64,000 nucleotides of DNA from Seonamhaeicola sp. (lineage in GTDB: Bacteria; Bacteroidota; Bacteroidia; Flavobacteriales; Flavobacteriaceae): NCBI RefSeq assembly GCF_028281565.1, contig NZ_JANQJQ010000006.1, forward strand, positions 1 to 64,000. Reading direction: 5' to 3'. The position numbers and the translations under genes were made by a program. The notes below the pieces were generated by a model. It saw only the letters and a list, made by a program, of their open reading frames with translations, was not told where the DNA came from and did not search any database. This document shows positions 42,615 to 56,387 of the stretch, piece after piece (the first letter of the stretch is position 1; every line of letters starts with the position of its first letter).

Positions 42615-42647
42615 AGACCTACCAGGTTTTAAAAACCTGGTAGGTCT
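42615..42647. repeat. Perfect 33-bp palindrome, GACCT...AGGTC family
   Basis: Left arm AGACCTACCAGGTTTT, central A, right arm the exact complement. It lies between the ABC gene and the exonuclease gene. It is the same family as 53641-53673 and as the palindromes around the RAYT segment. Confidence 0.85.
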
Positions 42648-50691: not shown

Positions 50692-50708
50692 ATTATTTCT
50701 TATATAAT

Positions 50709-50771
50709 GTCATTCTGAATGAAACGAAGCATCTAAAAATAAAAGAGATGCTTCACTATGTTCAGAATGAC
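50709..50771. repeat. REP-pair between hemB and hemF
   Basis: The outer arms GTCATTCTGAA and TTCAGAATGAC are perfect complements. The inner arms GAAGCATCT and AGATGCTTC are also perfect complements, leaving a loop of about 9 bases. It has the same GTCAT...ATCT / AGAT...ATGAC layout as other repeats in the window. Confidence 0.85.
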
Positions 50772-50775
50772 AAAG

Positions 50776-52290
50776 TTAAACCCAATCTATTGGATTTTTT
50801 AAAACTTCAATTAATTTTTCTTCGTCACTTCCCGGTTCGGGATGATGGTCGTATACCCATTGTACATGTGGTGGCAAGCTCATTAAAATGCTTTCAATAC
50901 GTCCGTTGGTTTTTAAACCAAACAGTGTGCCTTTATCATGCACCAGGTTAAACTCTACATAGCGTCCTCTTCTTATTTCCTGCCAATTTCTGTGTGCTTC
51001 CGTATAGGACAGTTCTTTTCGTTTTTCAACAATGGGCACATAGGCGTCAAGGAAGCTATCACCAACTTCAGTTACAAAGTTATACCAATCTGCCATGGTC
51101 ATATCATCTGTGGCTTTACAATAATCGAAAAACAATCCGCCTACACCACGTGCTTCATTTCTATGCGTGTTGTAAAAGTACTCGTCGCAACGCGCTTTAT
51201 ATTTTGGATAGAATTCCGGATGGTGCTTATCACAAGCTGCCTTACAAGTCTCATGAAAATGTTTGGCATCTTCTTCAAATAAATAATAGGGGGTTAGGTC
51301 TTGTCCGCCTCCAAACCATTGGTCTACAATGTTACCGGATTGGTCATACATTTCAAAGTAACGCCAGTTGGCATGAACTGTAGGAACCATAGGGCTTTTA
51401 GGATGAATCACCAAACTTAGTCCGCAGGCAAAAAAATTGACATCACCTACTTTAAAATAGGCTTGCATAGACTTAGGTAATTTACCATGCACCGCAGAAA
51501 TATTAACACCGCCTTTTTCAAACACGTTGCCGTTTTGAATAACACGAGTGCGTCCGCCACCACCTTCGGGCCGTTTCCAAAGGTCTTCTTGAAAAGTCGC
51601 TTTACCGTCAATAGTTTCCAGCGTAACAGTAATAAAATCTTGTAAATCTTGTATGTATTGATAGAACTTGTCCTTCATGGATTGCTTAATATTAACACCT
51701 ACAAGGTCTCCAAGACCTTGCAGGAGAGGTGTCTTAGTTGTGTTTGTTTCTTGACCTGCAAAGTTTTCAAAACTTTGTAGGTCTTTTGCATGAACAAATT
51801 TAAAGTTTTCAATATCTTCAAATAATCCTAAAATATAAGCTTTTTCGGAAGAAAGCTTAGTTAAATAAGAATTGAAAGATGTGAATTTATAATCCCTAAA
51901 ATCTTTAATCATACCATGGTTTTGAGGATTTTTATGGATATAAAGAATTAAATTCTTAAGATAAGTCTCGTCCTTAATTTTTTTTCTTTTGAAATGCTTT
52001 TCAAACAGACTCCCTGTTCTGTTTTGCTGCTTGTTGAATGCTTTTGCATAAGCATTAAAGAGATTAGAAAAGGCCTGGGTTACCATAGATTCTTCTTCAA
52101 CGACCTTAACTATAAGATGGAAGTGATTATTCAATAAACAATAAGCAATAACATCAGCTTTTCCTTTTAGGTATTTCTCTATTAATTTTAGAAAATAAAC
52201 CATATTATCGTCAGATTTAAAAATATCTGAGCTGTTTATTCCTCTATTGAAGATATGATAATAATGGTCTTTTTCTATTTTTTCTAACAT
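50776..52290 (-). CDS. hemF: Coproporphyrinogen III oxidase fused in frame to a REP-associated Y1 transposase
   Basis: One open frame of 504 codons. Residues about 205-504 are a complete aerobic coproporphyrinogen III oxidase of 300 residues with RPEGGGGRTRVI, GKLPKSMQAYF and WWFGGGQDLTPYYL-like features (seen as DQWFGGGQDLTPYYLFEED). Residues 1-175 are a RAYT-type HUH nuclease: HYYHIFNRGIN, the HUH pair in NNHFH (His56, His58) and the probable nucleophile Tyr117 in YIHKNPQNHG. The linker (about 176-204) is encoded by two palindromes. The native HemF start is very likely the ATG at 51678, so HemF may be made alone, as a fusion, or both. The HemF half looks intact; its natural upstream region has been replaced. 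Confidence 0.9.
   Translation of the reverse strand: MLEKIEKDHYYHIFNRGINSSDIFKSDDNMVYFLKLIEKYLKGKADVIAYCLLNNHFHLIVKVVEEESMVTQAFSNLFNAYAKAFNKQQNRTGSLFEKHFKRKKIKDETYLKNLILYIHKNPQNHGMIKDFRDYKFTSFNSYLTKLSSEKAYILGLFEDIENFKFVHAKDLQSFENFAGQETNTTKTPLLQGLGDLVGVNIKQSMKDKFYQYIQDLQDFITVTLETIDGKATFQEDLWKRPEGGGGRTRVIQNGNVFEKGGVNISAVHGKLPKSMQAYFKVGDVNFFACGLSLVIHPKSPMVPTVHANWRYFEMYDQSGNIVDQWFGGGQDLTPYYLFEEDAKHFHETCKAACDKHHPEFYPKYKARCDEYFYNTHRNEARGVGGLFFDYCKATDDMTMADWYNFVTEVGDSFLDAYVPIVEKRKELSYTEAHRNWQEIRRGRYVEFNLVHDKGTLFGLKTNGRIESILMSLPPHVQWVYDHHPEPGSDEEKLIEVLKNPIDWV
51696..51731. repeat. Asymmetric REP palindrome at the RAYT/hemF junction
   Basis: ACAAGGTCT and AGACCTTG form the core, with outer ACCT and AGGTGT ends and an unpaired GCAGGAG bulge on the right. 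The same asymmetric design and orientation are found at 52304-52339. It lies inside the open frame, 18 bases upstream of the native hemF ATG. Confidence 0.8.
51753..51783. repeat. 31-bp palindrome within the RAYT-HemF linker
   Basis: GACCTGCAAAGTTTT and AAAACTTTGTAGGTC are complementary except for one mismatch, around a central C. It is related to the 33-bp palindromes at 42615 and 53641, and is translated as part of the linker. Confidence 0.85.
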
Positions 52291-52303
52291 TGCTTGAATT
52301 TAT

Positions 52304-52339
52304 ACCTACAAGGTTTTGAAAACCTTCCGGGATAGGTGT
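52304..52339. repeat. Asymmetric REP palindrome at the RAYT 5' side
   Basis: ACCTACAAGGTTTT pairs with AAAACCTT, then a CCGGGA bulge, then TAGGTGT. Its orientation matches the element at 51696-51731. It also ends 1 base before the GNAT stop codon at 52340. Confidence 0.8.
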
Positions 52340-52882
52340 TTATTCTACTTCTTTGTACAATTCATATAGTTCCATGTCCAAAGGGTTCTCTCCGGGAGGT
52401 GTGTGTTCGTTTTTTAAGGTTTTTATCCATGTAAAATTACAATTTTCAGCTACTTTAATACTTGGGAAGTTGTTTTTGTAAACGATAATTTGGAGAGTTT
52501 CTAATCCTAATTCATTAAAAGCATGGTTAGATAAGAAACTAATAGCCTGCGTAATTATACCCTGGCCTTCAGATTCATAATGAATGCAATAAGCGAATTC
52601 CCCTTGCTTTTTTGTCCAATCCAGTGATTTTAAATAGACTAACCCGATAAGCTTATTGGTTTCTTTTTGTTTAAGTGTGAATAGGAATTCTTCCTTTTCT
52701 TGAAATTGTCTTGCCTTCTTTTTAACAAAAAGGTTCGATAGGTCGGGTGTTAAATTTTGTGCTAAAGTTTTTGGGAAATAGTGTTTTAACCGGTCTTCAT
52801 TTGCAACTACAAAGTTACAAATATCCCAGGCATCTTGAATTTGAATAGGTTCTATATAGAAAGTTTCAAAGTCAAATAGCAT
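52340..52882 (-). CDS. GNAT-family N-acetyltransferase
   Basis: A 180-residue acetyltransferase related to the RimJ/RimL type. It would transfer an acetyl group from acetyl-CoA to an amine of a protein or small molecule. The acetyl-CoA pyrophosphate-binding loop is in the YESEGQGIITQAISFLSNHA stretch (about 102-121), followed by the typical LETLQIIVYKNNFPSIKVAE (about 127-146). The substrate cannot be predicted. It overlaps the EI24 gene by 11 bases. Confidence 0.87.
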   Translation of the reverse strand: MLFDFETFYIEPIQIQDAWDICNFVVANEDRLKHYFPKTLAQNLTPDLSNLFVKKKARQFQEKEEFLFTLKQKETNKLIGLVYLKSLDWTKKQGEFAYCIHYESEGQGIITQAISFLSNHAFNELGLETLQIIVYKNNFPSIKVAENCNFTWIKTLKNEHTPPGENPLDMELYELYKEVE

Positions 52883-53630
52883 CGGGTAAATTGTTTTTCA
52901 AATTTAAAGCTTCAACAGTCCTTACAGACGCTGCTGTTACTGAAAGGGGTAATACTAAAATAACACCAATGATCGGGATTAAAAGACATAATAAAAACAC
53001 AATACCATTTCCTATAGCTAATCCTCTGTTTTTTCTAACAAAGGCCAAGCTTTCGGTATATTTAAAGTGGCGTTCAAGGGTATAGTCCATATTACCAAAA
53101 CCGGCATAATAAGCTTGCATTAAAAACAGCAGGATGGTTGAAAATATATTGACTACAGGAATAAATTTCAGCAATAAAATAGGAATTGTAAGTAACAGTT
53201 CCATCAACAGGTTTCTAACATTAATACGAATACCGCGCCATAACTGTTGCATAAAAGACGTGTCTCTATGTGATTGCGCTTCAATACCTGTTAAATGTGC
53301 TTCAATCTTTTCGGAAACCGGACTCATAAACGGAGCCGATAATGCCATGATGATATGTTTATAAAGTATAAGCCCAATAACCAGCACAATTAATCCGCCA
53401 ATAAAAGCGCTTATTGAAGAGAAAGTCTCTTTGCCCCAATCCCAAACCCAGATTCTTGAAATAAAACCACCGATATTATCTGACAAACCATAAGCAGACC
53501 AAAAAATAATGATAAACGTAACAAAACTAATAGCCATGGGGATAACGAAAAACTTCCAGAGCTTTAGTCTTGATATTAGGCCGAAAGCACCGAAATATGC
53601 TTTAATGCCTGATGAAATATCTTTAATCAT
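52872..53630 (-). CDS. EI24-domain membrane protein
   Basis: A 252-residue inner-membrane protein of the EI24 family, in which E. coli CysZ (a sulfate permease) belongs. It has about four to six hydrophobic segments (starting near 25-50 and 73-100) and the family stretch LSAPFMSPVSEKIEAHLTG (about 95-113). Sulfate uptake is possible but unproven. It lies between hemE and the GNAT gene on the same strand. Confidence 0.83.
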   Translation of the reverse strand: MIKDISSGIKAYFGAFGLISRLKLWKFFVIPMAISFVTFIIIFWSAYGLSDNIGGFISRIWVWDWGKETFSSISAFIGGLIVLVIGLILYKHIIMALSAPFMSPVSEKIEAHLTGIEAQSHRDTSFMQQLWRGIRINVRNLLMELLLTIPILLLKFIPVVNIFSTILLFLMQAYYAGFGNMDYTLERHFKYTESLAFVRKNRGLAIGNGIVFLLCLLIPIIGVILVLPLSVTAASVRTVEALNLKNNLPDAI

Positions 53631-53640
53631 AACTATTTTT

Positions 53641-53673
53641 AGACCTGCCAGGTTTTAAAAACCTGGCAGGTCT
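53641..53673. repeat. Perfect 33-bp palindrome between hemE and the EI24 gene
   Basis: Left arm AGACCTGCCAGGTTTT, central A, and a right arm that is the exact complement. It differs from the copy at 42615 by one symmetric base pair change, showing that both arms have changed together. Confidence 0.88.
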
Positions 53674-53677
53674 TGGA

Positions 53678-54703
53678 TTACATGCTATATTCTTTTACTG
53701 CATCTATAAATGCTTTGGCATGGTCTAAGGGAATGTGAGGCAAAATGCCATGGCCAAGATTTACAATGTATTTGTCTTTACCAAATTCGTTGATCATTTG
53801 ATGTACCATTTTTTTGATTTCCGCAGGGGGCGATAGTAACCTCGCCGGATCAAAATTACCTTGTAGCGTTATATTGCCACCGGTTAAGTAGCGTGCATTT
53901 CTGGGTGAGCATGTCCAATCTACACCTAAGGCAGACGCATTACTTTTTGCCATATCACCAAGTGCAAACCAGCACCCTTTTCCAAAAGCAATTACCGGAG
54001 CATCGTCTTTTAAAGCCTCTATAATTTGGTTGATATACTGCCATGAGAATTCCTGATAATCTGTGGGCGATAACATGCCTCCCCAGGAATCGAATACTTG
54101 AACGGCATTACAACCGGCCTTTACTTTTTCTTTTAAATAGGCAATGGTAGTATCGGTTATTTTCTGGAGCATTTGATGTGCCGCTACCGGATTTGTAAAA
54201 CAAAATTCCTTGGCTTTATCAAAGGTTTTACTACCCTGTCCTTGTACACAGTAGCATAAAATGGTCCAGGGAGAGCCGGCAAAGCCAATTAAAGGGATCT
54301 CATCATTCAATAACTCTTTGGTGGCTTTTATGGCTTGATATACATAATCTAATGCTTCCGTTACATCCGGAACTATGACGTTATCAACATCTTTTTGAGA
54401 ACGAACCGGATTGGGTAAGTAAGGGCCAAAGTTTGGCTTCATTTGCACCTCAATATTCATGGCCTGCGGAATCACCAAAATATCGCTGAATAAAATAGCG
54501 GCATCCATACCGTACCGACGGATAGGCTGCACGGTGATTTCACTGGCCAATTCAGGAGTTCTGCAACGGGTGAAAAAATCGTATTTCTCACGAATAGCCA
54601 TAAACTCCGGGAGGTAGCGCCCGGCCTGACGCATCATCCAAACAGGTGGACGGTCTACCGTTTCACCTTGTAATGCTCTTAAAAATAAATCGTTCTTTAT
54701 CAT
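53678..54703 (-). CDS. hemE: Uroporphyrinogen decarboxylase
   Basis: Decarboxylates the four acetate side chains of uroporphyrinogen III to give coproporphyrinogen III, the HemF substrate. The 341-residue enzyme shows the signature [17 protein letters not shown] (about 18-34), with the catalytic Asp in LFSDILVIP (about 71-79), and [16 protein letters not shown] (about 143-158). Full-length. It sits between hemCD and EI24, with repeats on both sides. Confidence 0.97.
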
Positions 54704-54812: not shown

Positions 54813-56387
54813 TTACACATAATGCGCATTCACCAATTCAATGACACTTTCAACTGTTGGTACTTTGGCAACCCTGACATCTTTAAACTTTTTTCTGGCT
54901 TCTTTTGCTGTGGTTTCCCCAATACAAAAAGCTATGCCTTCGGCATCATTTTTTTGCAAATAACTCTGAACCGTTGATGGACTATAAAACATAATGTTTT
55001 TTACGGAGTCATCAACTTTTACGGCATCAAACTTAGTTTGATACGCTTCAACCTCATTTACTTTAATATGATTAGCGTCAAGTATCGTTGGCAGGTCATC
55101 CAATCTTAAATTGCTACAGAAATATGTGACTTCGGTGCCTTCAATAAATTCCACTAAATATTCTGCAAGTGCTTTAGCATTTTTTTCGGTATGGATGACT
55201 TTTCCAATTTTGTTTTCAACCAGGCGTTTGGTGCGTCTGCCTACACAATAGATATTCTTAAACTTTAACGCTTCTTTTGAAAAATTGGTCAGTAAAGCAT
55301 CAACAGCATTTTTACTGGTGATGATGACGTTTTCAATTTCGTCCTTTACAACGTGCTTATGAATTCTGTTCGGATTCGTTTTTATAAAATCAGAACTTTT
55401 AGAAACCACCTTTTCATTAAATAATAATCGTTGATCTTCGGTTAATGATTTCGTGGAAAATACGTTCGTTTTTTTAGAGCCGTTTTTAATGTCATCCATT
55501 AAACGTTTCCCGCCTCTTTCAATAATATAATCTGAAGCGTATGAAGCTATATCATGATGATTTCCTAATTTTTCAACTCTTGTAACTTCAATTTTTTTTG
55601 AACCGTCTTTACTTAACAACACGCCTTTAAAAGACACCTCATCGTCTTTAATTCTCGCCAAAGCTCCAATTGGTGCGGTACAACCGCCTTCCAATTTATT
55701 TAAAAACTCACGTTCAATGGTTGTACAGATCTCAGTTTCTTCATGATTTAATTGGGAGCAGGCTTCAACGGCAAAATCATTCTCTCCTAAAGCAGCAATC
55801 ATAATGGCACCTTGAGCAGGCGCAGGGATCATCCAGCTTAAGTTGATAGATTCATCAGGCCTAATGCCAATTCTGCCAATACCTGCAGCGGCAAAAATAG
55901 CCCCGTTCCAATCTTTATCTTTTAATTTTTGAAGACGTGAATTCACATTCCCTCTTAAATCAACGATGGTATGTGTTGGATAGCGGTTAAGCCATTGTGC
56001 TCTTCGGCGTAAACTGCCTGTGGCTATTACCGCTTCTTTAGCACCTAAAAACTCTTCGTTATGTTTAAAAACCAAAGTATCATTAACATTGCCTCGTTTC
56101 AACACCGCCACCTGAACAATACCCTTTGGTAAAATAGTGGGAACATCTTTTAAAGAATGCACTGCAATGTCAGCATCGTGGTTTAATAAAGCAATGTCTA
56201 ATGTTCTGGTGAAAATACCGGTAATTCCCAATTCGTAAAGTGGTTTATCCAGAACAATATCGCCGGTAGATTTAACCGGAACCAGTTCTGTTTTGTAGCC
56301 TAAATTTTCAAGTTGTTGTTGTACGGTTTTGGCTTGCCATAGTGCCAATTCACTATCGCGCGTACCAATTTTAATGACTTTAGACAT
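54813..56387 (-). CDS. hemC: Fused porphobilinogen deaminase / uroporphyrinogen III synthase
   Basis: Two consecutive heme enzymes in one 524-residue chain. Residues about 1-300 are HemC: IGTRDSELALWQA at the start, RGNVNSRL (about 145-152), and the dipyrromethane cofactor Cys236 in EGGCTAPIG. Residues about 310-524 are HemD-like (poorly conserved, with SKNAVDALL, FCSNLR and a YSPSTVQSYL stretch), which cyclises hydroxymethylbilane to uroporphyrinogen III. A fusion would channel the unstable intermediate. It overlaps hemA by 8 bases and has a REP pair downstream. The fusion itself is clear; HemD activity follows from the family. Confidence 0.93.
   Translation of the reverse strand: MSKVIKIGTRDSELALWQAKTVQQQLENLGYKTELVPVKSTGDIVLDKPLYELGITGIFTRTLDIALLNHDADIAVHSLKDVPTILPKGIVQVAVLKRGNVNDTLVFKHNEEFLGAKEAVIATGSLRRRAQWLNRYPTHTIVDLRGNVNSRLQKLKDKDWNGAIFAAAGIGRIGIRPDESINLSWMIPAPAQGAIMIAALGENDFAVEACSQLNHEETEICTTIEREFLNKLEGGCTAPIGALARIKDDEVSFKGVLLSKDGSKKIEVTRVEKLGNHHDIASYASDYIIERGGKRLMDDIKNGSKKTNVFSTKSLTEDQRLLFNEKVVSKSSDFIKTNPNRIHKHVVKDEIENVIITSKNAVDALLTNFSKEALKFKNIYCVGRRTKRLVENKIGKVIHTEKNAKALAEYLVEFIEGTEVTYFCSNLRLDDLPTILDANHIKVNEVEAYQTKFDAVKVDDSVKNIMFYSPSTVQSYLQKNDAEGIAFCIGETTAKEARKKFKDVRVAKVPTVESVIELVNAHYV

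Follow-up and report, generated by a model that had tools for sequence, protein, structure and literature searches.

In many marine flavobacteria, as read from their genomes, a REP transposase (RAYT) is joined to the front of the heme enzyme HemF in one continuous gene. We here describe 34 distinct in-frame RAYT-HemF fusions in Flavobacteriaceae, compiled from named loci and a draw of genomes of the family after removal of duplicates. With 34 cases, 20 of them devoid of a start codon at HemF, and with purifying selection on the gene, both the fusion at family level and the idea that it yields one polypeptide are strongly supported. One such gene lies in the window, i.e. the whole stretch of 64,000 nucleotides from Seonamhaeicola sp. 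(contig NZ_JANQJQ010000006.1) that was analysed.

A RAYT and HemF in a single open reading frame

The window ORF (50776..52290, minus strand) encodes 504 amino acids, starts with ATG and is stop-free across both parts. Its RAYT part, a TnpA-REP-like HUH nuclease matched by NF047646, comprises residues 1 to ~168 (51787..52290, minus), with an approximate 3′ border because this match stops at residue 136. It is followed by a linker of ~36 residues (~169–204; 51679..51786, minus), in which two REP palindromes are translated, and by a complete oxygen-dependent coproporphyrinogen III oxidase, HemF (residues 205–504; 50779..51678, minus), whose M205 corresponds to the ATG at 51678–51676. HemF is unmistakable, being a full-length domain above the cut-offs of PF01218 (residues 209–503, 447.8 bits, cut-off 31.8) and NF003727 (residues 207–503, 420.4 bits, cut-off 297). 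The RAYT assignment, on the other hand, rests on significant sub-threshold matches to NF047646 REP_Tyr_transpos (residues 18–136, 54.8 bits, E = 9.4e-15, cut-off 80) and PF01797 Y1_Tnp (residues 8–120, 20.4 bits, E = 5.8e-4, cut-off 23), on an HxH motif at residues 56–58 together with Tyr117, and on the flanking REPs. Since the curated models score below their cut-offs, though significantly, we speak of a RAYT-type protein and do not claim membership of the NCBI equivalog. His56, His58 and Tyr117 we take to be the catalytic residues, as in the RAYT family. At E ≤ 0.001, the window genome contains one match to this RAYT, i.e. a single copy. The sequence-only reading, which had given no strand, had postulated a complete RAYT-type HUH nuclease and a complete HemF in one frame with no stop codon in between; ORF, residues and HemF profiles agree with this, and the 504-residue frame is indeed uninterrupted.

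How widespread is this arrangement? Two overlapping samples were used, namely the best 80 of at least 583 confirmed relatives among named contigs with HemF, and a draw of 397 genomes of the family. A RAYT directly upstream, in the same frame and without a stop, was found in 20 of the 80 named loci, from Algibacter, Flavivirga, Hyunsoonleella, Winogradskyella, Hanstruepera and other Flavobacteriaceae. The family draw gave a match in 342 of its 397 genomes and a single full-length ORF in at least 17 of the 397, the window genome included. The N-terminal extension of HemF measures 187–240 residues in the 34 fusions, and HemF was single-copy in all 20 genomes checked (17 with a fusion, 3 with an adjacent unfused RAYT). 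A draw of 295 genomes from the class comprised 158 in which either the HemF or the RAYT part was matched at E ≤ 1e-30, and among the matches listed there was no full-length fusion besides the window's own. The sole other stop-free frame of more than 400 codons among these matches, a 755-codon frame around HemF in a genome of another family (G480:C27), proved to be a chance frame opposite another long ORF and no fusion.

A sequencing error hiding a stop or frameshift had been an early worry, and a search for the 504-residue architecture in related genomes had been suggested. This search recovered 33 further distinct loci with the same single frame, which refutes the worry; an assembly or sequencing error found no support and is now extremely improbable. 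Likewise, with 34 distinct in-frame cases, a chance open frame is rejected and the fusion is no artefact.

Start codons in front of HemF

Codon 1 of HemF is ATG in 12, GTG in 2 and a non-start codon in 20 of the 34 fusions (ATC 10, ATA 4, GTC 2, and GTT, ACC, TTT and CTC 1 each). Among 106 distinct non-fused HemFs, by comparison, it is ATG in 94, GTG or TTG in 5 and neither in 7, the latter having an in-frame ATG 1 to 17 codons upstream (fused versus non-fused, Fisher p = 6e-10, kinship not considered). ATG, GTG and TTG are all absent in frame from codon −19 to +10 in 19 of the 34 fusions, and from −40 to +10 in five; where a nearby start is missing, the reading frame has its next ATG 70 codons into HemF. 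Cultivable species devoid of the internal start include Hanstruepera flava (L109) and Winogradskyella litoriviva (L083), and Hyunsoonleella jejuensis (L054) is one that has retained it. Given the absence of a start codon in 20 of 34 cases, HemF would hardly be made outside the fusion in those species, and one polypeptide is its most plausible source there. The window species retains an intact ATG at 51678, so that fused and separate translation are both possible and the fusion need not be the main product. Thus, of the two alternatives first raised for this gene—a bifunctional protein or HemF translated from 51678—the former gains support at family level, and both remain for the window itself. 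A scan for the consensus flavobacterial promoter pattern returned no match in the inserted cassette and 3 in the window (4.0 expected).

The linker as a translated REP hairpin

The linker corresponds to the REP hairpin of the RAYT itself, translated into protein. Palindrome 1 of the window (51753..51783) is translated as DLQSFENFAGQ, and palindrome 2 (51698..51724), with 0 mismatches to the genomic REP pattern, as LLQGLGDLVG. A further, non-coding palindrome with two mismatches lies 5′ of the RAYT (52305..52331) and forms the core of one copy of a 42-nt direct repeat that, with its palindromic core, is present on both sides of the RAYT (51691–51732 and 52298–52339). Direct repeat and palindromes together constitute a REPtron-like arrangement. 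When folded as RNA, 51670–51800 forms two hairpins (z = −4.5). The common REP translation in the fusions reads D-L-Q/S-G-F-E-N-L-A/T-G; in L073 and L078 the REP is translated in another frame, as R-P-A-R-F-x-K-P-A-R-S. Across the fusions, the linker (169–204 of the window) has no invariant position. RAYTs of the family that are not fused have their own stop, and a REP-like palindrome then follows in 16 of 20 stretches as judged by eye.

Is the stem itself maintained? The REP alignment comprised 31 of the 34 linkers (27 distinct), L069, L121 and L122 being left out as no REP palindrome was found in them. Stem pairing amounted to 92.3% of cells against 86.2% in shuffles, a share that is favoured by our choosing the best palindrome as the REP core of each linker; in slid controls it went down to 27–54%. 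Both sides had changed in 9 of the 14 stem pairs (0/500 shuffles as high), and four of five covariation measures were unreached by 500 shuffles, the number of pair types not being above them (242/500). Scored against the common type DLQGFENLAG, compensated stem changes replace G by S and L by F in the window linker, G by D in L041, T by I and G by D in L046, and G by D in L125. Given such compensated changes, some of which alter amino acids, the stem persists as a nucleic acid structure even as it encodes protein. At the other end of the cassette, the acetyltransferase frame in L078, L083, L121 and L125 ends in RPSRF, KPSRF or RTSKY, as though loss of its stop had allowed translation of the 5′ REP as well.

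Selection on the RAYT part and REP numbers

His58 and Tyr117 are present in 34 of 34 fusions and His56 in 33, the exception being L124 with Gln at this position. Median pairwise dN/dS, based on the 350 of 666 pairs with both dS defined among 37 sequences (34 fused, 3 unfused), was 0.14 for the RAYT part and 0.054 for HemF, which indicates purifying selection on both. In the close pairs listed, dS of the RAYT is lower than that of HemF, a hint of RAYT exchange to which we give no weight, dS being near saturation. The RAYT survey covered 56 genomes with a match at E ≤ 1e-20, and the matches inspected comprised 29 loci and 20 stretches, partly the same genes. Three fusion genomes (G065, G163 and G236) possess a second, unfused RAYT. 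A search with anti-phage models gave no match.

REPs were counted in 58 genomes of our choice by means of a 27-nt pattern with up to 2 mismatches; the counts include hem-locus copies, and the broad pattern also catches REPs of other RAYTs. The window genome has 20 and 25 copies by two patterns. The median count was 20 in 17 fusion genomes, 6.5 in six genomes with an adjacent RAYT and 0 in 35 without a RAYT at the hem locus (p = 8e-8, kinship not considered). Within genera, the fusion genome had the higher number in 10 of 12 comparisons (sign test, 0.019), where the partner value for the window's genus is the mean of G001–G004 and G006, and five fusion genomes had no tested partner. Both exceptions (G161/G349 and G103/G313) involve a partner genome with another RAYT elsewhere, and one of the 12 compared fusion genomes, G163, has its second RAYT too. 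Five genomes without a hem-locus RAYT had six or more REPs (G238 40, G349 15, G073 10, G313 8, G002 6), and some fusion genomes had few (G412 2, G161 3). Fusion genomes hence tend toward more REPs, with exceptions. G238, for all its 40 broad-pattern REPs, is outside the 56 genomes with a RAYT match. Within the window, REPs at 42618–42644 and 53644–53670 have the arms CCTACCAGG and CCTGCCAGG; the CCTGCCAGG type occurs at several other places in the window genome, whose one RAYT is accompanied by two or more REP subtypes.

The insertion site in the hem operon

The cassette (51679..52339, minus) spans 661 bp and fills the exact stretch from the acetyltransferase stop (TAA, 52340–52342) to the hemF ATG at 51678; it is absent in relatives in which this stop and the hemF ATG touch. 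Its upstream neighbour is a GNAT-type acetyltransferase gene (52340..52882, minus; sub-threshold model matches), overlapping by 11 bp with a gene for a CysZ/EI24-like membrane protein (52872..53630, minus; sub-threshold CysZ match), and hemE lies beyond (53678..54703, minus). The operon contains a second fusion, a 524-aa ORF at 54813–56387 composed of hemC and a uroporphyrinogen-III synthase-like part (sub-threshold). Between hemF and hemB, an imperfect inverted repeat with 27-nt arms (50708–50772) is unlike the REPs of the RAYT and of a type with one match in the window.

In 97 RAYT-less loci, the gap from hemF to the upstream gene, counted with frames below 120 codons disregarded, was ≤0 in 33, ≤10 bp in 52, ≤60 bp in 68 and larger in 29. 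Given that hemF mostly abuts its upstream gene in these relatives, there was probably no leader to remove, and the initial claim that the insertion had removed an old hemF leader is not supported. In 13 of the RAYT-less loci with a gap above 300 bp, a 115-codon ORF ends within 6 bp of hemF; a constant gap of ~355 bp, considered as a mobile insert, turned out to be this conserved operon ORF. Similarly, candidate RAYT remnants before hemF in L043/L129, L132 and L133 (matches running through a stop) were the end of the acetyltransferase gene.

At six distinct loci, a RAYT adjoins hemF without being fused to it. Three of these are unfused yet tightly coupled (L007, overlap 11; L130, overlap 4; L145, gap 5). 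The others (L153, L157 and L160) have gaps of 155, 200 and 216 bp across the three, which implies that RAYT-hemF coupling is not obligatory. L007 and L054 share 94% identity along 3.4 kb of the hem operon, and one extra AATC unit at the L007 junction places its RAYT out of frame. L112 (genome G161) and L054 have a 120-base stretch in common, and the genomes of L007 (G005) and L112 (G161) bear different genus codes (g1 and g152); possibly, the hem region has been exchanged between genera. In L182 and L189, RAYT relatives lie directly upstream of a hemE-like gene, as compared by eye with hemE of the window.

Gains, exchange and apparent loss

The RAYT tree contained 55 rows after L018 and L171 (cut copies of L182 and L181) and L192 (in-frame stop) had been dropped. 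It separates 44 rows of a hem-locus group from 11 RAYTs elsewhere with branch support of 99/96. The 44 rows are made up of 34 fused and 6 adjacent RAYTs, three at 1.0–2.6 kb from hemF, and L168, for which a longer stretch (L189) puts the RAYT 1.5 kb before a HemF match. Fused and unfused states alternate in this tree, with 6 changes of state, at least 4 of them forced by starred branches. In the HemF tree (140 sequences), whose resolution is low with 12 of 137 branches starred, the fusion is scattered, with 24 changes as drawn and at least 6 forced, and RAYT-less hemFs are interspersed.

Two groups of RAYTs occur in Winogradskyella. Between L069 and L091, each bearing the name W. psychrotolerans, identity is 96.7% for HemF and 55.2% for the RAYT; between L053 and L076, it is 95.3% and 52.1%, respectively. 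RAYT groups A and B, which were named after the RAYT tree had been seen, are rejected as clades by HemF DNA (p = 4.5e-6 and 3.9e-4), and the Winogradskyella HemF set is rejected by RAYT protein. RAYT and HemF distances nevertheless correlate (r = 0.42, 0/2000 permutations as high), which speaks for common descent too. A single origin of the fusion followed by vertical descent is not supported, in view of the changes in the RAYT tree and the rejection of groups A and B. With 55%-identical RAYTs in frame before 97%-identical HemFs, the arrangement has arisen or been reassembled more than once, and different RAYTs have come to lie in frame before nearly the same HemF through new insertion or replacement.

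The reverse event may be seen in L102 (W. jejuensis), where a REP but no RAYT precedes hemF, codon 1 is ATC and a new ATG lies 5 codons upstream. Its HemF groups with that of the fused L118, which likewise has ATC, and the locus is in keeping with a fusion that has lost its RAYT. L052, L101 and L102 all have a REP or REP remnant upstream of hemF with the RAYT absent, and these are possible scars.

Discussion

How might such a gene come about? We favor, with a probability of roughly two in three, a reading in which a REP cassette occupies the junction of acetyltransferase gene and hemF, couples its frame to hemF and is expressed with it as one polypeptide whose RAYT is active. The cassette, consisting of REP, RAYT gene and REPs, sits inside the heme operon at a junction where, in RAYT-less relatives, the genes mostly touch or overlap and hemF is probably translated by ribosomes arriving from upstream. 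Once it is present, ribosomes would reach hemF most readily by running on from the RAYT, and variants whose RAYT frame continues through the 3′ REP into hemF, or overlaps the hemF start, would be retained. An open frame would then render the hemF start codon dispensable, in line with its absence in 20 of 34 fusions. The predicted product in start-less species is a HUH nuclease, a REP-encoded linker and HemF in one chain; in the window species, free HemF may be made as well by initiation at the internal ATG (51678). To judge from the catalytic residues, purifying selection, compensated stems and REP numbers, the RAYT would still act on REPs. Were the RAYT to suffer a frameshift or nonsense mutation, HemF would be silenced too, and this would help the RAYT persist; clean loss would be possible and seems to have occurred. 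HemF is presumably needed under aerobic conditions only. HemN scores above cut-off in 16 of the 17 fusion genomes, the window genome among these, so that HemF is at most conditionally essential, and this weakens the argument for RAYT persistence.

Going one step further, RAYTs may repeatedly make HemF their C-terminal domain via the translated hairpin, owing to a recurrent advantage of one bifunctional protein. Different RAYT lineages in the same slot, each in frame and with two REP frames among them, would then point to such an advantage; this is a tentative claim that we hold at a little under even odds. If true, the advantage could lie in RAYT persistence by frame sharing, or in REP processing coupled to heme or oxygen status.

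Alternatively, the arrangement may matter at the transcript level only, HemF being made from its own internal start and the lack of stops across the REPs being incidental. Retention of the internal ATG in 12 of 34 fusions, the window included, is in line with this, as are the out-of-frame overlaps of L007 and L130 and the near contact in L145, which would give two proteins; at L007, the extra AATC unit relative to the 94% identical L054 is what shifts the frame. We nonetheless consider this explanation unlikely, as a start at HemF codon 1 is missing from 20 of 34 fusions, and any start within −40 to +10 from five, whereas 99 of the 106 HemFs outside fusions retain a start at codon 1. Could the RAYT instead serve as a regulator of heme synthesis that adjusts hemF by binding the REP hairpins of its own gene or mRNA, its nuclease being secondary? 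REP hairpins both flank the RAYT and sit inside the ORF, the linker RNA fold reaches a z of −4.5, the stem is kept by compensatory changes even where amino acids differ, and RAYTs adjoin another heme gene, hemE, in L182 and L189. Mere binding, however, would not need Tyr117 and the HxH motif, which are kept, genome-wide REP numbers track the presence of a RAYT, and conservation of the stem would be expected equally for a single-stranded DNA substrate. A regulatory role is therefore a doubtful rival, albeit one that is compatible with the favored reading and not exclusive of it.

A neutral ratchet, in which the RAYT is a decaying passenger kept since loss of the frame would break hemF, might account for the patchy distribution, the apparent losses and the L124 fusion with Gln in place of His56. 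We regard it as quite improbable: a pure spacer would keep the frame and not the catalytic residues, which are near-invariant in 34 sequences, and the median dN/dS of the RAYT part is 0.14.

Comparison with known systems

Domesticated RAYTs are reportedly the subject of a 2017 paper by Bertels and colleagues. In passages of two articles on RAYTs and REPtrons, RAYTs are described as single-copy, vertically inherited, domesticated transposases, REPINs as commoner in those E. coli genomes that have a RAYT (PMC8049555), and single-stranded REP as being cleaved by TnpA-REP (PMC8266576); these passages describe no RAYT-HemF fusion. The sequence-only reading knew of no fusion of a RAYT to a heme enzyme, and none was found in the open-access literature, most subscription papers being outside this scope. 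As far as that literature shows, then, the fusion, the translated REP and the recurrence are new, RAYT/REPtron systems and HemF being already known. In PMC6006769, unexpectedly long TnpA-Y1 proteins were discarded as gene fusions or annotation errors, and the fusion may thus have been missed.

According to PMC8049555, RAYTs are long-kept, with their exact function unknown and their gain and loss not yet modelled. Here, a single-copy RAYT is tied to a host enzyme by its reading frame. The loci can be placed in a natural series, from those with no RAYT through adjacent and out-of-frame overlapping RAYTs to fusions with and without the start codon, which ends with the apparent loss of the RAYT after the start codon had gone (L102). 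A palindromic DNA element is moreover kept simultaneously as nucleic acid structure and as coding sequence, and testable predictions are offered in cultivable marine bacteria.

The window RAYT resembles known RAYT/TnpA-REP/REPtron systems in its HUH motif with one tyrosine, its REP hairpins on both sides, its single copy and its dispersed REPs. It differs from them in being in frame with a metabolic enzyme, in the translation of its 3′ REP and in the exchange of RAYT lineages at one slot. Unfused RAYTs of Flavobacteriaceae, 47–65% identical to that of the window (20 stretches), end at their own stop before the REP, and 11 lie outside the hem-locus group. As to HemF, a complete domain, single copy number and location in a heme operon are shared with known representatives, whereas the fused form has a DNA-nuclease N-terminal extension and, in 20 of 34 cases, a codon 1 that is no start codon.
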